Of a stretch of 64,000 bases of DNA, positions 25,064 through 35,133 are shown piece by piece; the stretch's first letter is position 1, and each line of letters begins with the position of its first letter. A model generated the notes under the pieces. It was given only the letters and a program-made list of their open reading frames with translations, made no database searches and was not told the DNA's origin. The position numbers and the translations under genes were made by a program. The DNA is from Achromobacter xylosoxidans. Lineage in GTDB: Bacteria; Pseudomonadota; Gammaproteobacteria; Burkholderiales; Burkholderiaceae_B. The stretch is from the NCBI RefSeq assembly GCF_014490035.1, contig NZ_CP061008.1, forward strand, positions 744,001-808,000. Direction: 5' to 3'.

Positions 25064-25138
25064 TGGAGGCGCGGGCTGGAATCGAACCAACCTCTGCGGA
25101 TTTGCAATCCTGCTGCATAGCCACTCTGCCACCGCGCC
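25064..25138 (-). tRNA. tRNA-Cys (anticodon GCA) with one extra base in the anticodon stem
   Basis: Read on the reverse strand, the acceptor stem GGCGCGG pairs with CCGCGCC, followed by discriminator T and an encoded CCA. The anticodon loop is TTGCAAA (GCA, cysteine). The T arm is GTTGG-TTCGATT-CCAGC. The 5' side of the anticodon stem reads GCAGGA, six bases, against TCCGC on the 3' side, which leaves one bulged A. With CCA it is 75 nt, one more than my recollection of the E. coli tRNA-Cys. The D arm has normal size. Identity is clear; functionality is probable but the bulge deserves a check. Confidence 0.9.
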
Positions 25139-25141
25139 GTT

Positions 25142-25167
25142 TGTTTTGTCCTAGGACAGATATAATT
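25142..25167 (+). promoter_or_regulatory. Promoter of the decarboxylase with TGTCCTAGGACA operator
   Basis: A consensus TATAAT lies at 25162-25167, and a perfect 12-bp palindrome TGTCCTAGGACA at 25148-25159 directly before it. The -35 is weak, somewhere in GTTTTG/TTTTGT around 25139-25147. A site between -35 and -10 suits repression or MerR-like control. Close variants lie before the MocR gene and in the psd/hisC gap, which points to the MocR protein as the binder. The 5' end of tRNA-Cys is only 9 bp from the palindrome. Confidence 0.6.
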
Positions 25168-25220
25168 ATGTTCGAGTACATACTAAAGCGCAAGCGGCAA
25201 CCCATAGACAGAGGACAGCA

Positions 25221-27485
25221 ATGCAGTTCCAGTTTCCCATCGTCATCATCGACGAGGACTTCCGCTCGGAAAACACGTCCGGCCTGAGCATCCGGGTATT
25301 GGCCGAGGCCATCAAGGCCGAGGGCTTCGATGTGCTGGGAACGACCAGTTACGGCGATCTCAGCCTGTTCGCGCAGCAGCAGAGCCGCGCCAGCGCCTTC
25401 ATCCTGTCCATCGACGACGAGGAACTCGCCCATGGAGAGGGGGTTGCGCCTGCGCTGCTGGCGTTGCGGGAGTTCATCAGCGAAGTGCGGCGGCGCAATG
25501 CCGACGTGCCGATCTACGTGTACGGCGAAACCAAGACCGCGCGGCACATTCCGAACGACATCCTGCGCGAACTGCAGGGCGTGATCCATATGTACGAGGA
25601 CACGCCGGAATTCGTGGCGCGACATTTGATCCGCGAGGCCCGGGCCTATCTGGAAGGCGTCAAGCCGCCGTTCCTGAAGGCGTTGCTGGACTACGCCGAG
25701 GACGGTTCCTATTCCTGGCACTGCCCGGGCCATTCGGGCGGCGTGGCGTTCCTGAAAAGTCCGGTGGGCCAGATGTTCCATCAGTTCTTCGGCGAGAACA
25801 TGTTGCGCGCGGACGTCTGCAATGCGGTGGAGGAACTGGGGCAGCTGCTGGACCACAATGGCGCCATCGGCGCGAGCGAGCGCAATGCCGCGCGCATCTT
25901 CAATGCGGACCACTGCTATTTCGTGACGAACGGGACCAGCACCAGCAACAAGATCGTGTGGCACCACATGGTGGCGCCGGGCGACGTGGTGCTGGTGGAC
26001 CGCAACTGCCACAAGTCCATCCTGCACAGCATCGTCATGACGGGGGCGATTCCCGTCTTCCTGCGTCCCACGCGCAACCATTTCGGCATCATCGGTCCGA
26101 TTCCGCGCAGCGAGTTCGACGTCCAGGCGATCCGCGAGAAGATCCGCGCCCATCCGCTGCTCAAGCACCTGGACGCCGATGAGGTCCGCCCGCGGGTGAT
26201 GGCGCTGACGCAGTCGACCTACGACGGCATCATCTACCAGACCGAGGAGATCAAGGCGGCGCTGGATGGCTACGTGGACGCCTTGCACTTTGACGAAGCC
26301 TGGATGCCGCATGCGGTGTTCCATCCGTTCTATGGCGCCTACCACTGCATGGGCAAGCAGCGCGCGCGGCCCAGGGAATCACTGGTTTTCTCCACGCAAT
26401 CCACGCACAAGCTGCTGGCCGGGATCAGCCAGGCCAGCCACGTGCTGGCGCAGGACTCCCTGACGCGGCAGCTGGACCGGCATCTTTTCAACGAAGCCTA
26501 TCTGATGCATACCAGCACCAGTCCCCAGTACGCCATCATTGCCAGCTGCGACGTGGCGGCGGCCATGATGGAGCCGCCCGGCGGAACGGTGCTGGTGGAG
26601 GAGAGCATCGCCGAGGCCTTGGACTTCCGGCGTGCGATGCAGGAGGTCGGCACGCATTTCGCCGACGGCGACTGGTGGTTCAAGGTCTGGGGGCCGGAGA
26701 CGCTGGCGCCGGAGGGCATAGGCTCGCCCGAGGACTGGATCATCCGCGGCGGCGATGGCGATTCGTCCTGGCACGGATTCGGCGCGCTGGCGGATGGTTT
26801 CAACATGCTGGATCCGATCAAGTCCACCATCGTGACGCCCGGGCTGGACCTGGATGGCAACTTCGCGGACAGCGGCATTCCGGCCTCCATCGTCACCAAG
26901 TTCCTGGCCGAGCATGGCGTGATCGTGGAGAAGACCGGGCTGTACAGCTTCTTCATCATGTTCACGATAGGGATCACCAAGGGCCGCTGGAGTTCGCTCC
27001 TGACGGCGTTGCAGCAATTCAAGGACGACTACGGGCGCAACCAGCCCATGTGGCGGATCCTGCCGGAGTTCTGCCGCAAGTATCCCCGCTACGAGAACAT
27101 TGGCTTGCGCGATCTGTGCCAGCATGTTCATGCGACCTATGCCAGGCATGACATCGCCCGGCTGACCACGGACATGTACCTGACCGACGTCACTCCCGCG
27201 ATGAAGCCCTGCGATGCCTATGCCTGCATCGCCCAGCGGCGCACCGAGAGGGTGGAGATCGACCATCTGGAAGGCCGCATCACCACCAGCCTGATCACAC
27301 CCTATCCCCCGGGCATACCTTTGCTGGTCCCGGGCGAGGCATTCAACCGGACCATCGTCGATTACCTGAAGTTCTCGCGCGAGCTGAACCGGGAGTGTCC
27401 CGGGTTCGGCACGGACATCCATGGCTTCGTGGAGCTGCGCGACGCGGACGGAAACCTGCGCTATTACGTGGATTGCGTGCGGTAG
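25221..27485 (+). CDS. Orn/Lys/Arg decarboxylase (fold I, biodegradative type)
   Basis: This large PLP-dependent amino acid decarboxylase has 754 residues, close to the length of arginine decarboxylase AdiA. An N-terminal response-regulator-like wing (residues 1-130, starting MQFQFPIVIIDEDFRSEN) is followed by the catalytic domain. The Schiff-base lysine is about Lys397 in STQSTHKLLAGISQASH. HFDEAWMPHAVFHPFYGAYH is closest to the arginine-specific members as I recall them, but substrate choice among Arg, Lys and Orn cannot be settled by eye. It yields agmatine, cadaverine or putrescine plus CO2, giving acid resistance or polyamines. The start has AGAGGA upstream. It is probably controlled by the MocR at 27648. 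Confidence 0.93.
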   Translation: MQFQFPIVIIDEDFRSENTSGLSIRVLAEAIKAEGFDVLGTTSYGDLSLFAQQQSRASAFILSIDDEELAHGEGVAPALLALREFISEVRRRNADVPIYVYGETKTARHIPNDILRELQGVIHMYEDTPEFVARHLIREARAYLEGVKPPFLKALLDYAEDGSYSWHCPGHSGGVAFLKSPVGQMFHQFFGENMLRADVCNAVEELGQLLDHNGAIGASERNAARIFNADHCYFVTNGTSTSNKIVWHHMVAPGDVVLVDRNCHKSILHSIVMTGAIPVFLRPTRNHFGIIGPIPRSEFDVQAIREKIRAHPLLKHLDADEVRPRVMALTQSTYDGIIYQTEEIKAALDGYVDALHFDEAWMPHAVFHPFYGAYHCMGKQRARPRESLVFSTQSTHKLLAGISQASHVLAQDSLTRQLDRHLFNEAYLMHTSTSPQYAIIASCDVAAAMMEPPGGTVLVEESIAEALDFRRAMQEVGTHFADGDWWFKVWGPETLAPEGIGSPEDWIIRGGDGDSSWHGFGALADGFNMLDPIKSTIVTPGLDLDGNFADSGIPASIVTKFLAEHGVIVEKTGLYSFFIMFTIGITKGRWSSLLTALQQFKDDYGRNQPMWRILPEFCRKYPRYENIGLRDLCQHVHATYARHDIARLTTDMYLTDVTPAMKPCDAYACIAQRRTERVEIDHLEGRITTSLITPYPPGIPLLVPGEAFNRTIVDYLKFSRELNRECPGFGTDIHGFVELRDADGNLRYYVDCVR

Positions 27486-27528
27486 GCACGCTTTATGCGG
27501 ACCGGGAATCCATGTCAAACTTACGCGG

Positions 27529-27588
27529 GGAGTTGGCCCGGCCAGGAGTTGGCCCGGCCAGGAGTCGGCCCGGCCGGGAGTCGGCCCC
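27529..27588 (+). repeat. Tandem 16-bp repeat, 3.75 copies
   Basis: The unit GGAGTTGGCCCGGCCA is repeated at 27529, 27545 and 27561, and as a partial copy at 27577. T-to-C and A-to-G changes mark the later units. Each unit contains a GGCCCGGCC/GGCCGGGCC core that can pair within or between units. The array lies in the 162-bp gap between the decarboxylase stop and the MocR start, where it could act as a terminator-like structure or a slippage-prone spacer. Confidence 0.85.
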
Positions 27589-27633
27589 ATTGACTTGACG
27601 CGGCCCGGCCGCTGTCCGTGCCAGGAACGGAAT

Positions 27634-27645
27634 TGTCTTAGGACG
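27634..27645. promoter_or_regulatory. TGTCTTAGGACG, operator overlapping the MocR ribosome binding site
   Basis: This site differs at two positions from the palindrome before the decarboxylase. Its AGGA (27640-27643) is also the only plausible Shine-Dalgarno sequence for the ATG at 27648. Binding here would block expression of the regulator itself, which fits autoregulation. Confidence 0.5.
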
Positions 27646-27647
27646 CT

Positions 27648-28943
27648 ATGAAAATACAAGGAAAGACCGCCGCTGAGATCTTCGATTGCGTGCGCGGGCT
27701 GGCTCAATCGGGCCAGCTGCCGCCGGGCCAGGCATTGCCGCCGGTGCGCGATCTGGCGGTCGAACTGGATATCAACCGTAATACGGTTGCCGCGGCCTAC
27801 AAGCGGTTGGTGACGGCGGGCATCGCGCTGACCCAAGGCCGCCTGGGCACCATCATCCGCGACCAGTCCGGCCCGGGCGAACAGGAAGGCGCGCTGTCGG
27901 ACTCGCCGTTGGCCGACCTGGCCAGCGGCAATCCCAATCCGGCCTGGCTGCCGGATCTGAGCGCCGCCCTCGCCATCCGGCCCTATCAGCCGCGTCTCTA
28001 TGGCGAACCCACAGTCAACGCGGGGCTGGAAAGCTATGCCCGCGCCTGGTTCGCGCGAGACTGCCCGTCGCCTTTCGAGATCAACCTGACCCACGGCGCG
28101 GTGGACGCCATCGAACGGCTGCTCAGCTCGCACCTGGTGGCTGGGGATAAGGTGGCGGTGGAGAATCCCTGCTTCCTGAGCAGCATCAACATGCTGCGCA
28201 TCGCCGGCCTGCAGGCGCTGGGCGTGCAGGTCGACGCCGAAGGCATGCAGGCGGCAGCGCTGGAAGCGGCGCTGGCCAAGGGCGCGCAGGCCGTGATCCT
28301 GACGCCGCGCGCCCACAACCCCACGGGCTGCAGCCTGAGCGAAAAGCGGGCGAAGGCGCTGGCGCGGGTGCTGGCCAAGTATCCCCATGCCATGGTCATC
28401 GTGGACGACCACTACGCTTTGCTGTCGGGCAAGGAATACCACTCGGTGTTGCCTGCGGGAACGCAGCGGTGGGCGCTGGTGCGCTCGTTCTCCAAGACGC
28501 TGGGTCCCGATGTGCGCTTGGCCATGGTGGCCAGCGATGCGGCGACGTCGCGCCAGTTGCGCCTGCGGCTGGCTTCCGGCACCAGCTGGGTCAGCCATCT
28601 GCTGCAGGACATGGTCGAGGCCACGCTGGGCCGGCCCGAGGTGGCCAAGCAGATGGCCCAGGCCCGCAAGGATTACGCGCAGCGGCGCAAGGCCCTGGAA
28701 AGCGCCTTGCTGGAGCAAGGCGTGCCGTGCGCCGCGGACGGCGACGGCTTGAACCTGTGGGTGCCGCTGGATACCGACGACCAGGCGGTTGCGCTGGCTC
28801 TGGCCCATCGCGGCTGGCTGGTGCGCCACGGCGATGCCTTCGGGGTCCAGGAGCCGGTCAGGGGCCTGCGCATCACCATCTCGGCGATCGAACCCGGCCA
28901 GTGCCGCAAGCTGGCGCGGGATATCCGGGAAAGCATGCTCTAG
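27648..28943 (+). CDS. MocR-type regulator (GntR helix-turn-helix fused to aminotransferase-like domain)
   Basis: This 431-residue protein has a GntR winged helix (residues 1-70, with PPVRDLAVELDINRNTVAAAYK) joined to a fold I aminotransferase domain. The PLP lysine lies in VRSFSKTLGPDVRLAMV. MocR proteins sense PLP, amino acids or amines and act as activators or repressors. It sits between the decarboxylase and psd, and variants of one palindrome lie before all three transcription units, so it is the prime candidate regulator. Catalytic activity of the aminotransferase part is usually lost in this family. Confidence 0.93.
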   Translation: MKIQGKTAAEIFDCVRGLAQSGQLPPGQALPPVRDLAVELDINRNTVAAAYKRLVTAGIALTQGRLGTIIRDQSGPGEQEGALSDSPLADLASGNPNPAWLPDLSAALAIRPYQPRLYGEPTVNAGLESYARAWFARDCPSPFEINLTHGAVDAIERLLSSHLVAGDKVAVENPCFLSSINMLRIAGLQALGVQVDAEGMQAAALEAALAKGAQAVILTPRAHNPTGCSLSEKRAKALARVLAKYPHAMVIVDDHYALLSGKEYHSVLPAGTQRWALVRSFSKTLGPDVRLAMVASDAATSRQLRLRLASGTSWVSHLLQDMVEATLGRPEVAKQMAQARKDYAQRRKALESALLEQGVPCAADGDGLNLWVPLDTDDQAVALALAHRGWLVRHGDAFGVQEPVRGLRITISAIEPGQCRKLARDIRESML

Positions 28944-28955
28944 CCACGGCCGGGG

Positions 28956-29801
28956 TCAACGCCGGTCGGCCATGGCTTGTCCCAATCTGACGGCGCGCCC
29001 TGTCTTCCAGCCGGGATGGAAGCGCCAGGCGCTGCCCGGCATCAGCACCACCACGGTCGACCCCAACTGGAAATGTCCCATCTCGGCGCCTTGCGGCAAG
29101 CGCAAGGGAGCCAGGCTGCCGTAGTCCCATTGCTGGATGCGCCGGCCATGCGGCGCCACTTGGCCATGCCAGGCCGTGGCGATGCTGCCGACGATGGCGG
29201 CCCCCACCAGCACCATGGCGTAGACGCCATGGAGGGGATGCTCGAACCAGCAAACCAGCCGCTCATTGCGCGCCAGCAGGCCATCCATGCCCTGCACGAT
29301 GTCCGGCCGGACGGAGTACAGCGTCCCTGGCACATGGCGCATGCCCAGCAGGCGTCCCTCGCAGGGCATGTGCACCCGGTGATAGTCGCGCGGACTCAGG
29401 TAGATCGTGGTGAACCAGCCGCCTCCCAACGCGCGCGCCAGGTCCGCATCGGCCAGCAGCGCGGCCGCGCTGTATCGGCGCTGCTTGGCCTGGATCAGCT
29501 GTCCCAGGCTGATGCGGCCGAACTGGCTGACGGTGCCGTCCGCGGGGCTGGTCCAGTCCGCATCGGCCAGCTTGCGCGCGCCCGGGCGCAGCGCGCGCGT
29601 GAAGAAGGCATTGAAGCTGGCATAGGCCTTCGGGTCGGCGTGCAGCGCTTCGTTCAGATCGATGCCGTACCACTTGGCGTAGCCGCGTATCAGCGGCTGG
29701 GCTACCCATGGCTGGCGGCATGAGGCCAGCCGGCCGGCGCAACGCGTCAGCCAGCGCTTGGGCGCGATGCGTTGGACAAACAGGGAAAGAGAGGTCGACA
29801 T
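28956..29801 (-). CDS. psd: Phosphatidylserine decarboxylase
   Basis: This 281-residue enzyme converts phosphatidylserine to phosphatidylethanolamine at the inner membrane. The self-cleavage motif LGST is present (QLGSTVVVL), with Ser248 becoming the pyruvoyl group. Upstream catalytic features include DGTVSQFG, and YLSPRDYHRVHMP with the conserved His. Length fits proteobacterial Psd with LGST rather than the short archaetidylserine type. It is convergent with mocR (13-bp gap) and divergent from the HisC-like gene. Its upstream region carries TTGTCC/AGGACA half-sites shared with the decarboxylase, an unusual link between phospholipid and amine metabolism. Confidence 0.95.
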   Translation of the reverse strand: MSTSLSLFVQRIAPKRWLTRCAGRLASCRQPWVAQPLIRGYAKWYGIDLNEALHADPKAYASFNAFFTRALRPGARKLADADWTSPADGTVSQFGRISLGQLIQAKQRRYSAAALLADADLARALGGGWFTTIYLSPRDYHRVHMPCEGRLLGMRHVPGTLYSVRPDIVQGMDGLLARNERLVCWFEHPLHGVYAMVLVGAAIVGSIATAWHGQVAPHGRRIQQWDYGSLAPLRLPQGAEMGHFQLGSTVVVLMPGSAWRFHPGWKTGRAVRLGQAMADRR

Positions 29802-29831
29802 GAAACTCGCGGCTGTGCGTGATGGCGGCTA

Positions 29832-29867
29832 TTGTCCTGAATCATAGTGTAGTATGGCATAGGACAA
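29832..29867. promoter_or_regulatory. Divergent promoter region with inverted TTGTCCT / AGGACAA half-sites
   Basis: TTGTCCT (29832-29838) and AGGACAA (29861-29867) are separated by 22 bp in the gap between psd and the hisC-like gene. They are the same half-sites that abut in the palindrome at 25148. Each could also serve as a -35 (TTGTCC): on the minus strand TATGAT lies 15 bp away, on the plus strand TATGGC. Common control of both genes by the MocR protein is inferred. Confidence 0.5.
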
Positions 29868-29922: not shown

Positions 29923-31005
29923 ATGGTTTCCCTACACAGCCCGCGCGTTGAAACCTTGTCGCCCTATGTGCCTGGAGAGCAGGCTCCAGGCAACGGATGG
30001 ATCAAGCTCAACACCAACGAGAATCCCTATCCGCCGTCACCGGCCGCGATAGCGGCCATCGCCGCGGCGGCTGCCGATGGCCTGGAGCGCTATCCGGACC
30101 CGCAGGCCGCGCATTTGCGCGCGGCCATCGCGCAGTACCACGGAGTGCCGCTGGAGCAAGTCTTCGCCGGCAACGGTTCCGACGAAGTGCTGGCGCTGGC
30201 GTTCTGCGCGTTCTTCCAGCACGGTGTTCAGCCCTTGCTGATGGCGGACGTGACCTACGGCTTTTATGAGGTGTATTGCCGCCTGTTCGGCATACGCTGC
30301 GCGCAGATCGCGGTGGACGAGCGCTTGAGGCTGGACCTGGACGGATTCGCGGCGCTGGGCGCCGCGGATGCCGGCATAGCCGGCATTGTGATCGCCAACC
30401 CGAACGCGCCCACGGGAGAGTGCCTGCCGCTGGATCGCGTGCAGCGGCTGCTGGAGATCCAGCCTCGCCGGCTGGTGCTGGTGGACGAGGCCTATGTGGA
30501 CTTCGGCGGGCAATCCGCCATTGCGTTGGTGGAGCAATATCCTAATCTGCTGGTGGTTCAGACGCTGTCGAAGTCCAGGGCGCTGGCCGGCCTGCGCGTG
30601 GGGTTCGCCATGGGACAGGCGCCGTTGATCGCCGCGCTGGAGCGGGTGAAGAACAGCTTCAATTCCTATCCGCTCGGGCGGCTGGCCCAGGCGGGCGCCG
30701 CAGCGGCGTTTCAGGACCGTGCCTATTTCGAGGAGACGCGGCAGGCCATCATCGGCACCCGTACCTTGCTCTGCGCGCATTTGCGGCTGATGGGCTTCGA
30801 CGTCTTGCCGTCACAGGCGAACTTTCTGTTCGTCCGCCATCCGCGTTTCGACGCGCGGTCGCTCGCGGCCGGCCTGCGGGACGCGAAAATACTGGTGCGC
30901 CATTTTCCGCGGCCGCGCGTGGAGCAATACCTGCGCATTTCCGTGGGTACCGAGGAGCAGGCGGCCTGTCTGGTGCGCGCGCTGCGCACCCAGGTCCAGC
31001 CATAG
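29923..31005 (+). CDS. hisC: HisC-type histidinol-phosphate/aromatic aminotransferase
   Basis: This fold I aminotransferase has 360 residues, the usual HisC length. LNTNENPYPPSP is the N-terminal HisC signature, FAGNGSDEVLALAFCAF follows near residue 85, and the PLP lysine is in VVQTLSKSRALAGLRVGFAMG near 210. The family transfers amino groups to imidazole-acetol phosphate, and paralogues also act on Phe/Tyr. It is not in a histidine operon here, so it is probably a second copy. A different role, linked to the divergent psd and the MocR-type sites, is possible. Confidence 0.9.
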   Translation: MVSLHSPRVETLSPYVPGEQAPGNGWIKLNTNENPYPPSPAAIAAIAAAAADGLERYPDPQAAHLRAAIAQYHGVPLEQVFAGNGSDEVLALAFCAFFQHGVQPLLMADVTYGFYEVYCRLFGIRCAQIAVDERLRLDLDGFAALGAADAGIAGIVIANPNAPTGECLPLDRVQRLLEIQPRRLVLVDEAYVDFGGQSAIALVEQYPNLLVVQTLSKSRALAGLRVGFAMGQAPLIAALERVKNSFNSYPLGRLAQAGAAAAFQDRAYFEETRQAIIGTRTLLCAHLRLMGFDVLPSQANFLFVRHPRFDARSLAAGLRDAKILVRHFPRPRVEQYLRISVGTEEQAACLVRALRTQVQP

Positions 31006-31029: not shown

Positions 31030-31602
31030 CTATTGCGGACGCGGCGCGGGGCAGCTTTCCGCGTTGCACTCGCCGCGGGCGGGATCATCTGATGCGGCCG
31101 CATGTTCCGCAGGAGCATCGTGCTCCGCCAGCAGCCTGCCGATGGCCGCGCCCAGGGCCAGGTCTTCGATGCTGCCAAAGTGCTGCAAGCGCACGCGTCC
31201 CTGGCGGTCCAACAGGACCAGGCTGGGCGTGCCGCGCAAGCCGTAGGCTTGCATGGTCATTGGGATGGAGCTCGCCGCCGCTGGCCGGTCGATGCCGATG
31301 GGAAAGCTCCAGCGGTACTCGTGATTGAAGGCCCGCAACGCGGCCGGACCCATGACGTCGTGGTGTTCGAACACGGTATGCAGGCCGATGACCGCGACAT
31401 CCTGGCCGCGGAACAGCCGGTGCACGCGTTCGGCTTGGGGCAGCCCATGCGACAGGCACCCGGGGCATAGCATCTGGAACGCATGCAGCAGCACGACCTT
31501 GCCGCGCAGGGCGGCGAGGTCGATGGGACCATCCGCATTCAGCCATTCGTCCGCTTGCAAGGGCGGGGGCAGTACGTCGGTGTGGGTGTCGGATCGTGGC
31601 AT
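31030..31602 (-). CDS. Thioredoxin-like (TlpA/redoxin family) protein
   Basis: This predicted thioredoxin-fold protein has about 190 residues from ATG 31602, which has AGGAG eight bases upstream. The redox motif CPGC is in HAFQMLCPGCLSHGL near residue 49, and the cis-proline region is YGLRGTPSLVLLD. A Cys/Ala-rich tail (ECNAESCPAPRPQ) adds two further cysteines. There is no signal peptide or membrane anchor, so it is cytoplasmic or exported by an unseen route. Its substrate is unknown, and it is not obviously co-transcribed with neighbours. Confidence 0.85.
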   Translation of the reverse strand: MPRSDTHTDVLPPPLQADEWLNADGPIDLAALRGKVVLLHAFQMLCPGCLSHGLPQAERVHRLFRGQDVAVIGLHTVFEHHDVMGPAALRAFNHEYRWSFPIGIDRPAAASSIPMTMQAYGLRGTPSLVLLDRQGRVRLQHFGSIEDLALGAAIGRLLAEHDAPAEHAAASDDPARGECNAESCPAPRPQ

Positions 31603-31663
31603 CAGAAGACTCCTGTGAGGCGGCCGGCGGAGCAATCACGCGCCGCCGGCCGCGGTTGCCTTG

Positions 31664-32209
31664 CTACGCGGCGCGGCGCAGTTTCACGGCCGGGAAATCC
31701 ACCGGCACGGCAAACGCCACGTTGACGTAGTTGGTGAACAGGTTGAGCGCAACGTGCGCCAGAATCTCGACGATCTCCTGGTCGCTGTAGCCTGCCGCGC
31801 GCACGGCCTGCACGTCACCGTCGCTTACTTGCCCGCGCGCTTCCACCAGCTTGAGCGCAAAGCGCAGCGCCGCGGCGGTCTTGGGATCAGCGGCGTCGCC
31901 GCCTTGCGCGGCCGCCATTTCTTCGGCGCTGGCGCCGGCCTTGCGGCCCAGGGCCGTATGGGCCGCAAGGCAGTATTCGCAAGCGTTGCGGTCGGCTACC
32001 GCCACCGCGATCTGTTCGCCCAGCTTGGCGGGAATGACGCCGCCGCCCAGCGCGCCGAAGGCGCCCCACATGCTCTGCAGCGCCGCCGGCGAATTGGCCA
32101 CGGCCCTGAACATGTTCGGCGTTGCGCCAAAGGCGCCGTGGATCTGCGTGAGCAGCGCCTTGCGGTCCGCGCTGGCGCTGCTGGCATCGATAAGAGGGAC
32201 TCGGGACAT
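31664..32209 (-). CDS. Carboxymuconolactone decarboxylase/AhpD-family peroxidase-like protein
   Basis: This 181-residue protein has the AhpD core, CEYCLAAHTALGRKAG, with the CxxC pair and following His near residue 78. Family members are alkylhydroperoxidases or carboxymuconolactone decarboxylases; the CxxC favours a peroxidase. ATG 32209 is preceded by CAGGAG at good spacing. It is divergent from an AraC regulator and likely its target. A longer upstream frame is spurious. Confidence 0.9.
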   Translation of the reverse strand: MSRVPLIDASSASADRKALLTQIHGAFGATPNMFRAVANSPAALQSMWGAFGALGGGVIPAKLGEQIAVAVADRNACEYCLAAHTALGRKAGASAEEMAAAQGGDAADPKTAAALRFALKLVEARGQVSDGDVQAVRAAGYSDQEIVEILAHVALNLFTNYVNVAFAVPVDFPAVKLRRAA

Positions 32210-32331
32210 GTCGGTAACTCCTGGAAATGAAAAAAAGGCCGCCGGTTTCGGACGGGCTGGAGAAATCGTACGTAGAATGCCTGGACGCAAGGTGTTTTTT
32301 AATCCTGAAAAATTGTCATTTCGTCCAAGAT

Positions 32332-33198
32332 ATGAGCGATCCTCTTCCTCTCCAGGTTGACCGGCTGTCGGCGCTGCTGGACCGTTTCCGGGTGCGTGCC
32401 ACGCTGTTCCACACCGGTGCGCTATGCGGCACCCAGGCCTTCGAAGCCGTGCCGGGACGCGGCTTTCTGCACGTGCTGCGCCGGGGCGAGATGGAGGTAC
32501 GGCATCGGCCGGGCGAGACCGCCACGCCACGCCTGCGCCTGGCCGAGCCGACCCTGCTGTTCTACCCGCGCGCCGTGCATCACGAGTTCGTGAACCCGCC
32601 GCGGGACGGTTCCGATTTCACCTGCGCGGCGTTGGATTTCGACGGCGGCGAACGCAATCCCATCGTCCAGTCCTTGCCGTCCGTGGTGCGGATCCCGCTG
32701 GACGCGGTCGAAGGCTTGCGGCCCGCGCTGGACCTGCTGTTCGCCGAGGCGGATCACGTGCGCTGCGGCTCGCGCCTGTTGGCCGACCGCCTGTTCGAGG
32801 TGGTCCTGATCCAGCTGCTCCGGTGGATACTCGACCATCCGGAGGAGGTGGGCGTGACCAGCGGCCTGGTGATGGGCCTGTCGGATCCCCGTCTGGCCAG
32901 GGCGCTGGTGGCGTTGCACCGCTCGCCGTATGAAGACTGGTCCCTGGCCAGGATGGCGGCGATGGCGGGCATGTCGCGCAGCGCCTTTGCGGCAGCCTTC
33001 AAGGACGCTACCGGCGCCACGCCTGCGGCCTACCTGACCGACTGGCGCCTGAGCCTTGCGGCGTCCATGATGCGGTCTGGCCGCGCGGTCAAGCTGGTGG
33101 CGGCGGAACTGGGGTTTGCCAGCGCCTCGTCCCTGTCCAAGGCGTTCCGGCAGCGGATGGGGGTTTCACCGCGCGAGTGGCTGGCCGCCAACGCGTAG
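32332..33198 (+). CDS. AraC family transcriptional regulator (cupin N-terminus)
   Basis: This regulator has 288 residues from ATG 32332 (MSDPLPLQVDRL). The N-terminal half is a cupin sensor (FHTGALCG...LLFYPRAVHHEF). The C-terminal AraC double helix-turn-helix includes LARMAAMAGMSRSAFAAAFK and VAAELGFASASSLSKAFRQR. It is divergent from the AhpD-like gene and probably activates it, a common pairing in proteobacteria. The signal is unknown. Confidence 0.92.
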   Translation: MSDPLPLQVDRLSALLDRFRVRATLFHTGALCGTQAFEAVPGRGFLHVLRRGEMEVRHRPGETATPRLRLAEPTLLFYPRAVHHEFVNPPRDGSDFTCAALDFDGGERNPIVQSLPSVVRIPLDAVEGLRPALDLLFAEADHVRCGSRLLADRLFEVVLIQLLRWILDHPEEVGVTSGLVMGLSDPRLARALVALHRSPYEDWSLARMAAMAGMSRSAFAAAFKDATGATPAAYLTDWRLSLAASMMRSGRAVKLVAAELGFASASSLSKAFRQRMGVSPREWLAANA

Positions 33199-33220: not shown

Positions 33221-33305
33221 GTGATAATATTGACCTATGACAAAACTTCAGACGGCATAAGCGTAATGGAAAACGCCTGCCGTTGTTCCTCCGCGAGGTT
33301 CAGGC

Positions 33306-34148
33306 ATGAGCGAGCAAGACCCTGGGCAAGACAAGGACACCCAGACACAGCATGACCAGCATGGCCGCTGGCCGCAGGCGCAGTCGGTCGAGGACTTTCG
33401 CCGCAATCTGGCCACGGTCAACGGACGCATCGCCGATGCTGCGCGCCGCGCCGGCCGCGATCCGGCCGCGGTGCGGCTGCTGCCCGTGAGCAAGACGGTG
33501 GAGGAAGCGCGCATTCGGCTGGCCTACGAGGCCGGCTGCCGCTATCTGGGGGAGAACAAGCTGCAGGAAGTGTCGAGGAAATGGGAAGCCATGGCCGACC
33601 TGACCGATCTGCGATGGTCTGTCATCGGCCACCTGCAAACCAACAAGGCCAAGCTCGTGGCCCGCTATGCGGCCGAGTTCCAGGCGCTCGACAGCCTGCG
33701 GGTCGCCGAAGCGCTGGACCGCCGGCTGCAAGCGGAAGGCCGCCAGCTGGACGTGTTCGTGCAGGTCAACACCTCGGGCGAAGCCAGCAAGTATGGGTTG
33801 CAGCCGGACGAGACCGCGGCCTTCCTGCGCGAACTGCCTGCATTCTCGGGACTGCGGGTGCGCGGCCTGATGACCCTGGCGCTGTTCTCGGCCGAAGCCG
33901 CGCGCGTGCGCGAGTGCTTCGTGCTGTTGCGCACGCTGCGCGACCAATTGCGCCAGGACGCGCCGGCGGGCATCGGCCTGGATGATTTGTCCATGGGCAT
34001 GTCGGGCGATTACGAGATCGCCATCGAGGAAGGGGCCACGGTGGTCCGCGTCGGTCAAGCCATCTTCGGCGCGCGCAACACGCCCGATTCCTACTACTGG
34101 CCGACCGACAACGGCGCGGAATCGCGCGCGTCCGGCTCCCAGGAGTAG
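33306..34148 (+). CDS. yggS: YggS/PROSC family PLP-binding protein
   Basis: This single-domain alanine-racemase-like barrel binds PLP and helps PLP homeostasis. The PLP lysine is in LLPVSKTVEEAR near residue 62. Other family landmarks are YLGENKLQEV, WSVIGHLQTNKAK, VNTSGEASKYG and LSMGMSGDYEIAI. At 280 residues it is longer than the usual 230 because of a polar Q/D-rich N-terminal extension (about 25 residues) and a short tail. The ATG is followed downstream by a small unknown gene and an amidotransferase in the same direction. Confidence 0.92.
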   Translation: MSEQDPGQDKDTQTQHDQHGRWPQAQSVEDFRRNLATVNGRIADAARRAGRDPAAVRLLPVSKTVEEARIRLAYEAGCRYLGENKLQEVSRKWEAMADLTDLRWSVIGHLQTNKAKLVARYAAEFQALDSLRVAEALDRRLQAEGRQLDVFVQVNTSGEASKYGLQPDETAAFLRELPAFSGLRVRGLMTLALFSAEAARVRECFVLLRTLRDQLRQDAPAGIGLDDLSMGMSGDYEIAIEEGATVVRVGQAIFGARNTPDSYYWPTDNGAESRASGSQE

Positions 34149-34437: not shown

Positions 34438-35133
34438 ATGAGCCTCAGCGCTTTGGCGATCCGCCACGTTCCCTTTGAAGACCTGGGCATATTGGCGCCG
34501 GTCCTGGCTGATCGCGGCTATAGCGTGCGATACCTGGAGGCCGGCGTCGACGCCATTGACGCCGCCACCCTGGCCAACGCTGACCTCGTCGTGATCCTGG
34601 GCGGCCCCATCGGCGTCTATGAAACCGGCCGCTATCCCTTCCTGGAGCAGGAGCTGCGCGCCATCGCGCAGCGTCTGCGCCAGGACAAACCGACCCTGGG
34701 CATCTGTCTGGGCGCGCAACTCATGGCGGCGGCGCTGGGCGCGGACGTGGTGTCCACCGGCCGCGCCGAGATCGGCTATGCGCCGTTGACGCTTACGCCG
34801 CAAGGGCAGGATTCCGTGCTGAGCGCGGTCGAGTCCGTGCCTGTGCTGCATTGGCATGGGGACCAGTTCGCCATCCCCGAAGGCGCGGCGCGCCTGGCCG
34901 AAACGCCGGGTTTTCCGAACCAGGCGTTCGCGCTGGGACCCAGGATACTGGGCCTGCAGTTCCACCTGGAGGCGGATTCCGCGCAGATCGAGCGTTGGCT
35001 GATCGGCCATGCCTGCGAACTCAGCCTGCGCCAGATCGATCCCGCGGTCATCCGCGAGGACGCGCGGCGTTATGGTCCGCAGCTTGAACACGTCGCGCGC
35101 CAGGCGATGGAGCAGTGGCTGGACCTGCTCTGA
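34438..35133 (+). CDS. Class I glutamine amidotransferase-like protein (GMP synthase-like)
   Basis: This 231-residue protein of the class I amidotransferase (GATase1) fold has its nucleophile at about Cys90 in LGICLGAQLMAAALG. The His is in ILGLQFHLEAD, with Glu two residues later completing the triad. LHWHGDQFAIPEGA is typical of stand-alone GuaA-like amidotransferases such as YfeJ or gamma-glutamyl hydrolase relatives. No synthetase partner is adjacent. Substrate is unknown; hydrolysis of a gamma-glutamyl amide is plausible. Confidence 0.88.
   Translation: MSLSALAIRHVPFEDLGILAPVLADRGYSVRYLEAGVDAIDAATLANADLVVILGGPIGVYETGRYPFLEQELRAIAQRLRQDKPTLGICLGAQLMAAALGADVVSTGRAEIGYAPLTLTPQGQDSVLSAVESVPVLHWHGDQFAIPEGAARLAETPGFPNQAFALGPRILGLQFHLEADSAQIERWLIGHACELSLRQIDPAVIREDARRYGPQLEHVARQAMEQWLDLL

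Follow-up and report, generated by a model that had tools for sequence, protein, structure and literature searches.

Among described systems, the closest to the one considered here is PtsJ of Salmonella, a MocR-type regulator that is reported to repress the pyridoxal kinase gene pdxK together with its own gene, with repression enhanced by pyridoxal 5'-phosphate (PLP), and whose absence reportedly raises pdxK expression about 80-fold. MocR regulators more broadly have been predicted, in a comparative study, to control pdxK, COG325 (YggS) and a GuaA-family amidotransferase, and their commonest motif layout is given there as two direct boxes plus one inverted box (Suvorova and Rodionov 2016, PMC5320631). 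Here we consider a 64,000-nucleotide stretch of Achromobacter xylosoxidans DNA (contig NZ_CP061008.1, positions 744,001 to 808,000, on a replicon of 6.76 Mb; the whole stretch is termed the window), whose MocR-type gene is assigned by family model to ptsJ, encoding the vitamin B6-sensing repressor known from Salmonella. A sequence-only reading of the window had proposed that a single MocR-type site joins an amino acid decarboxylase gene, the regulator's own gene, psd and hisC. On the evidence of motif, architecture, distribution and conservation presented below, we judge it very probable that PtsJ, a MocR-type repressor that binds PLP, uses these sites as its operators and would have acquired an expanded target set, and PLP status is the best theme we find to unite the targets.

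PtsJ and its predicted operators in the window

The genes on which the argument turns are the following.

25221..27485, plus strand: odc2, ornithine/lysine/arginine decarboxylase, second copy, probably lysine-type (PF01276; LdcC model, 614 bits, cut-off 968)
27648..28943, plus strand: ptsJ, MocR/GntR-family regulator (NF012025, 708 bits, cut-off 573; 55% identical to Salmonella PtsJ)
28956..29801, minus strand: psd2, phosphatidylserine decarboxylase, second copy (PF02666; psd2 in 9/43 genus genomes, any psd in 42/43)
29923..31005, plus strand: hisC2, histidinol-phosphate aminotransferase family, second copy (TIGR01141, 304 bits, cut-off 277)
33306..34148, plus strand: yggS2, PLP homeostasis protein family, second copy (TIGR00044, 186 bits, cut-off 106)

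The regulator passes the NCBIfam equivalog model NF012025 ("MocR-like B6 salvage transcription factor PtsJ") over residues 1-429 and falls below the cut-off of the PdxR model NF052282 (152.7 against 320 bits). It combines a GntR helix-turn-helix domain (PF00392) with an aminotransferase fold (PF00155), in which K283 (SFSKTLGP), invariant in all six aligned proteins, is presumably the PLP lysine. In the protein alignment, the NRNTVAAAYKRL stretch of the DNA-binding domain is identical to that of Salmonella PtsJ, and of the 11 named loci found, 10 belong to Achromobacter, the best being 97% identical in PtsJ. No pdxK was noticed at the window locus, the rest of the genome not having been searched for it. 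As to odc2, its best NCBIfam model is LdcC, albeit at a score under the cut-off, and its nearest solved chain is 6q6i (753 bits), which was deposited under the name arginine decarboxylase and corresponds to the Pseudomonas aeruginosa lysine decarboxylase LdcA; because of these two matches, lysine is the likely substrate.

The palindrome TGTCCTAGGACA, which the sequence-only reading had rightly seen in the decarboxylase promoter but placed one base too far downstream (25148-25159), stands at 25147-25158 as the sole exact copy in the window. The two-mismatch copy claimed over the regulator's ribosome binding site is indeed present (TGTCTTAGGACG, 27634-27645, over the start region), as are the inverted half-sites in the psd/hisC gap (TGTCCT at 29833-29838 and AGGACA at 29861-29866). 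With up to two mismatches to TGTCCTAGGACA, seven matches occur in the window against 0.87 expected, a number reached in none of 100 shuffles; one of the seven, at 25591, falls within the odc2 reading frame, and others include 13670 and 61820. A 14-letter form, TTGTCmTAkGACAA, is matched at 12 or more positions by just three 14-mers of the 64 kb (25146, 29854 and 33230), the last of these before yggS2, a target that had been overlooked along with the odc2 site's proximity to a variant tRNA-Cys gene (tRNA-Cys2), the third and middle boxes, and the status of odc, psd and hisC as second copies. The predicted elements, to which no strand is assigned save for the -10 boxes, are listed below.

25146..25159: odc2 operator, boxes 1 and 2, TTGTCCTAGGACAG, 13/14, between odc2 and tRNA-Cys2 (predicted from motif score and alignment)
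25161..25166, plus strand: probable -10 box TATAAT of odc2 (conserved in the alignment; placed by eye)
25175..25180: third box AGTACA of the odc2 operator, 22 bp from box 2 (mean match to AGGACA at +22, 5.42/6 over 12 sequences)
27612..27617: third box CTGTCC of the ptsJ operator, 21 bp upstream of the left half (mean at -21, 3.83/6 over 18 sequences)
27633..27646: ptsJ operator, TTGTCTTAGGACGC, 11/14, -15 from the start and overlapping the ribosome binding site (predicted)
29833..29838: third box TGTCCT of the psd2/hisC2 operator (22 bp; mean 5.75/6 over 8 psd2 sequences, G030 omitted)
29854..29867: psd2/hisC2 operator, boxes 1 and 2, ATGGCATAGGACAA (TTGTCCTATGCCAT on the minus strand; predicted from motif score and alignment)
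33225..33230, plus strand: probable extended -10 (TG-A-TAATAT) of yggS2 (alignment of 17 sequences; placed by eye)
33230..33243: yggS2 operator, TTGACCTATGACAA, 13/14 (17/18 ptsJ-positive and 0/12 ptsJ-negative genomes; predicted)

The predicted operator comprises TTGTCmTAkGACAA and a third box, whose distance is 22 bp in the odc2 and psd2/hisC2 cases and 21 bp in that of ptsJ, an arrangement in accord with the MocR layout of two same-direction boxes some two helical turns apart plus one inverted, though weakly so at yggS2. On this architecture the inverted pair of the psd/hisC gap makes up the first and third boxes of an operator with three, and the odc2 palindrome corresponds to boxes 1 and 2 of a like arrangement. 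A sigma-70 consensus scan of the region returned no promoter, and no -35 was identified, so that the -10 assignments were made by eye. Judged in the same way, TATAAT comes directly after the odc2 palindrome and an extended -10 precedes that of yggS2, and both placements would suit a repressor. Between hisC2 and yggS2 (31033-33195) no site of at least 12/14 was found; this interval holds a redoxin-family gene and, by frame reading, a carboxymuconolactone-decarboxylase-like gene with a CxxC motif and an AraC-like gene.

We propose that a PtsJ dimer would read the 14-bp inverted repeat together with the third half-site two helical turns off. The operators at odc2, yggS2, psd2 and hisC2 appear to overlap the -10/+1 region, and bound PtsJ should therefore block RNA polymerase, while at its own gene PtsJ would cover the start-codon region and so exert autorepression. 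By analogy with Salmonella, PLP-loaded PtsJ would repress and PLP shortage would release the genes. The regulon probably began with YggS, the PLP carrier, and PdxK, the pyridoxal kinase, as its targets, and in Achromobacter and some relatives the regulon may have grown to take in YggS2, the lysine-type decarboxylase, HisC2, Psd2 and variant tRNA-Cys genes.

Co-distribution of the sites with ptsJ

Our genus sample comprised 43 genomes, with that of the window as G000; at a threshold of E 1e-100, 18 were called ptsJ-positive and 25 ptsJ-negative. For each gene, the best score against TTGTCmTAkGACAA was taken from -300 to +10, and scoring one strand sufficed because this motif is its own reverse complement. 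Controls were the paralogue loci returned by the searches (odc1 in 18/43 genomes, hisC1 in 24/42 and psd1 in 11/42).

The second copies of odc, hisC and psd, and the variant tRNA-Cys, were found in ptsJ-positive genomes only. Genes of the odc2 type (at least 82% identity) occur in 12 genomes, with a 70-71% paralogue in all 43; psd2 occurs in 9, with a 45-50% paralogue in 42; and hisC2 in 6, with a 55-57% paralogue in 42. Genes of the yggS2 type (at least 71%) are more widespread, being present in 30 genomes that include all 18 ptsJ-positive ones, and a more distant YggS (53-58%) is present in all 43.

The sites follow this distribution. All 12 odc2 genes have a site of at least 12/14 and none of the 18 odc1 controls scores above 10; for hisC2 the site reaches at least 11/14 in 6/6 genomes (hisC1, 0/24 above 10), and for psd2 at least 11/14 in 8/9 (psd1, 0/11 above 9). 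The sole psd2 without a site, in G030, lies directly downstream of odc2. The hisC2 and psd2 counts are not independent, since six genomes have one common site; psd2 qualifies as a regulon member in its own right because G041 and G019, in neither of which hisC2 was found, both keep its site. In G019, ptsJ, yggS2 and psd2 are spread over three contigs, with the sites of yggS2 and psd2 retained. The same genome also has TTGTCCT followed by TTGACCTAGGACAT before an MFS-transporter-like frame (C15, near 20650; L279 1978-2014), some 26 kb from psd2. At yggS2, a site of at least 12/14 is present in 17 of the 18 ptsJ-positive genomes, and none of 12 ptsJ-negative genomes scores above 10. The site at -15 of ptsJ itself is the top-scoring one there in 16/18 genomes, at 10-12/14. 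Conserved, tracking ptsJ and absent before the housekeeping paralogues examined, the sites support the proposal that one regulator governs its own gene along with the decarboxylase gene, psd and hisC.

Operator columns are conserved at 0.93-0.98, against 0.49-0.78 upstream and 0.52-0.65 downstream, the yggS2 operator standing at 0.98 against flanks of about 0.5 (G040 is omitted from the counts for odc2, leaving 11/12, and for yggS2, leaving 17/18, and G030 for psd2, leaving 8/9). Over whole genomes, the 18 ptsJ-positive ones contain 51 occurrences of the strict pattern WTGWCMTAKGWCAW and the 25 ptsJ-negative ones 12, versus 6 and 12 for the reversed pattern. Two TTGACATAGGGCAT matches in G000 were set aside as lying within long reading frames, and no operator role is claimed for the recurrent TTGACCTAGGTCAA: its G000 and G041 copy stands, by frame reading, between photolyase-like and sensor-like genes, that of G002 lies elsewhere, and copies are also present in G001, G016 and G042.

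Outside the genus, NF012025 is matched in 45 of 268 family genomes (7 genera), in none of 14 control genomes and in one other of 369 class-sampled genomes. At 28 out-of-genus ptsJ loci from 6 further genera, YggS is a neighbour at 25 and pdxK at 11, and a site of at least 12/14 is present at 27. Over 39 ptsJ loci, matches of at least 13/14 number 47, against none for the reversed pattern; loci L011 and L199 belong to one genome, which is counted once among the 28 and twice among the 39. Genes like odc2, hisC2 and psd2 lie near ptsJ in G092 and G177, and genes like odc2 and hisC2 in G182, while in Cupriavidus metallidurans the genes after ptsJ are psd2 and yggS/pdxK, a 14/14 site being present there. 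The additional class-sampled genome (G541) has a pair of AGGACAA boxes, spaced by 22 bp, ahead of ptsJ, with translated frames resembling yggS and the amidotransferase on the opposite strand.

By sequence resemblance, the Salmonella pdxK/ptsJ gap contains TTGTCATATGCTAA and TTGTCATAGGTCAA exactly 22 bp apart (12/14 and 13/14), and the Rahnella yggS-ptsJ gap has weaker boxes with the same spacing. Because the Salmonella gap combines this motif with repression described in published work, the operator assignment rests on an experimentally supported system. One record labelled a Salmonella plasmid (NZ_OU015330.1, L284) holds a ptsI-crr-pdxK-ptsJ-cysM stretch that would be expected on the chromosome.

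Competing explanations

The sequence-only reading saw in these genes a regulon balancing membrane headgroup charge and polyamine level, for example under acid stress, and a single regulon so tuned, with vitamin B6 incidental, is the alternative that survives best, although we regard it as unlikely. The lysine-type decarboxylase and the decarboxylase forming phosphatidylethanolamine do have an operator in common, and psd2 lies beside ptsJ in C. metallidurans and directly downstream of odc2 at locus L010. Nevertheless, in relatives ptsJ is neighboured most often by yggS, then by pdxK, most regulon members are PLP-linked, and Salmonella PtsJ reportedly acts on pdxK; the headgroup, polyamine and acid-stress interpretation finds no support here. 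Nothing pointing to pH was found, a matter that the analysis had no means of testing.

Less likely still is that the sites belong to another MocR-family protein, of which the one examined is a PdxR-type paralogue encoded at 5.458 Mb of G000 (L034 8584-10107; NF052282, 385 bits, cut-off 320), whose gene is flanked on both sides by sites of 14/14 and 13/14 in 5/5 genomes. That paralogue is present, at E 1e-120, in 5 of the 43 genomes, as against yggS2 sites in 17 and odc2 sites in 12, all with ptsJ; moreover, the motif adjoins ptsJ outside the genus and in Salmonella. Given its restriction to five genomes, we reject the paralogue as the cognate regulator, although the sites flanking its own gene may be bound by either protein. 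Its gene adjoins cytochrome c/beta-propeller-like and cytochrome c assembly-like genes (L034 7052-11900; G000:C1:5457051-5461899).

Least likely of all is that the matches reflect promoter, tRNA or ribosome-binding-site conservation plus chance and are no operators. In its favour are the overlap of the ptsJ copy with the ribosome binding site, the position of the odc2 copy right beside both TATAAT and the 5' end of a tRNA, and the lack of any excess of loose matches. Against it, the motif is absent from the paralogue promoters examined, operator columns are more conserved than their flanks, strict-pattern counts differ between ptsJ-positive and ptsJ-negative genomes, and the 22-bp third box recurs. 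Ribosome-binding-site conservation as the whole explanation is rejected because the left half and third box are conserved as well.

Several observations nonetheless weigh against the assignment of these sites to PtsJ. Both the 14-letter motif and the strict pattern were derived from the same sites, after the sites were known. Loose matching over the whole genome shows no excess: at 3 mismatches there are 187 matches against 282 for the reversed pattern, and the signal emerges with stricter patterns designed post hoc (33 versus 19; 5 versus 0) and through conservation. The associations of site with ptsJ have Fisher p-values of 1.5e-7 (yggS2) and 1.2e-8 (odc2) that ignore shared ancestry, and the ptsJ-negative yggS2 control is imperfect because those genes may occupy another locus. 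The third box is weak at yggS2 (mean 2.41/6 over 17 sequences, G040 omitted), and the ptsJ site is weaker than the others, in part explained by the ribosome binding site it overlaps. Ten of the 51 strict-pattern sites in ptsJ-positive genomes are located at the PdxR-type paralogue, itself flanked by near-perfect sites as described above. G177 has ptsJ, odc2, hisC2 and psd2 and no site of 12/14; G040 has ptsJ and the odc2 site, with a yggS2 devoid of one. Finally, Psd is not a PLP enzyme, and a purely PLP-enzyme logic therefore does not cover all members. In G040, a site is carried by the gene for a protein 54% identical to the window's glutamine amidotransferase (L281, site 4809), the latter being encoded near yggS2.

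34438..35133, plus strand: glutamine amidotransferase (NF005458, 320 bits, cut-off 250)

Cysteine tRNA genes and comparison with known systems

The proximity of the odc2 operator to a tRNA gene raises the further possibility that the PtsJ regulon extends to tRNA genes.

25064..25138, minus strand: tRNA-Cys2 (GCA), variant extra gene (ARAGORN; Rfam 47.3 bits; 5' end 7 nt from the operator)

This gene scores 47.3 Rfam bits against 63.2 for the two housekeeping copies scored, and the housekeeping tRNA-Cys, 83-84% identical to it, is present in all 43 genomes. An extra copy of the tRNA-Cys2 type (at least 89%) occurs in 11 genomes, all ptsJ-positive, beside odc2 or ptsJ; one ptsJ-negative genome (G038) has a second, partial tRNA-Cys match of 50 bases. 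The gap between tRNA and site is 7 nt in 8 of 9 odc2-linked cases and 35 nt in the other (G040), and it is 3 nt in G030; the G039 tRNA-Cys, called without a CCA end, has no site. Outside the genus, tRNA-Cys genes by odc2 or ptsJ have a 13/14 site in G092 (19 nt away) and G182 (5 nt), and one of 10/14 in G177. An unlinked tRNA-Cys3 is present in five genomes, all ptsJ-positive, and in 5/5 has ACGTCCTAGGACAA (12/14) 4-7 nt upstream, unchanged although the leader varies. Upstream of the housekeeping tRNA-Cys, examined in 3 of the 43 genomes, the best score was 8/14 in each.

In all five genomes, tRNA-Cys3 is followed by a short CxxC reading frame, thioredoxin-like by our own reading, and a catalase-like gene that scores 470 bits with the HPII model, below its cut-off (L243 3967-5915, G000:C1:5571966 onward; L244-L247). 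A separate catalase-like gene in the ptsJ-positive G030 has TTGACCTATGACAA (13/14) ending 37 nt before its start (L278 1991-3511, G030:C4).

Ten variant tRNA-Cys genes score 34-57 Rfam bits, against 63 for the two housekeeping ones, and some have anticodon-stem mismatches by eye; in the group of G000, G001, G016, G041 and G042, tRNA-Cys2 measures 75 nt and its anticodon stem is unusual. Because of these low scores and mismatches, the variant tRNAs may be weak, specialised or decaying. Direct repression by PtsJ, a ligand-sensing PLP-dependent factor, of the variant second tRNA-Cys gene, which diverges from the lysine-type decarboxylase gene, and of the third, at the head of the CxxC/catalase-like cluster, is possible, but we would place it somewhat short of probable; it is the most surprising and least proven part of the scheme. 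If true, a lack of PLP, or oxidative damage, would increase the capacity for decoding cysteine (or a regulatory tRNA) along with spare PLP enzymes and a PLP carrier.

A PtsJ regulon of this kind was not found described in the open-licence literature, which omits most subscription papers, nor was anything found there on tRNA promoters with pyridoxal or on a pdxK/yggS regulon in Bordetella. The main text of the comparative MocR study (PMC5320631) makes no mention of PtsJ, phosphatidylserine, HisC, lysine decarboxylase or Achromobacter, while its supplements may name these regulators otherwise. The present comparison defines a predicted operator for PtsJ and, beyond Enterobacteria, a conserved predicted regulon in which YggS, the PLP carrier, is the core target, and thereby makes testable how cells match PLP delivery to demand. 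It also offers an apparent example of second copies of housekeeping genes gathering under one regulator, among them a gene for lipid synthesis whose product does not use PLP and, it would appear, tRNA-Cys genes.

Set beside known systems, the PdxR-type paralogue resembles PtsJ in its MocR architecture and near-identical flanking sites, and differs in sequence (24% identity), in family model and in its presence in 5 of 43 genomes. Salmonella PtsJ is far closer to the regulator of the window: both belong to family NF012025, with 55% identity, the motif and 22-bp repeat recur in the Salmonella target gap, and there too a glutamine amidotransferase-type gene, annotated "GMP synthase", adjoins ptsJ. 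The two part ways in their targets, which in Salmonella are reported to be pdxK and ptsJ, whereas here it is yggS2, the decarboxylase gene, hisC2, psd2 and tRNA-Cys that bear the site.

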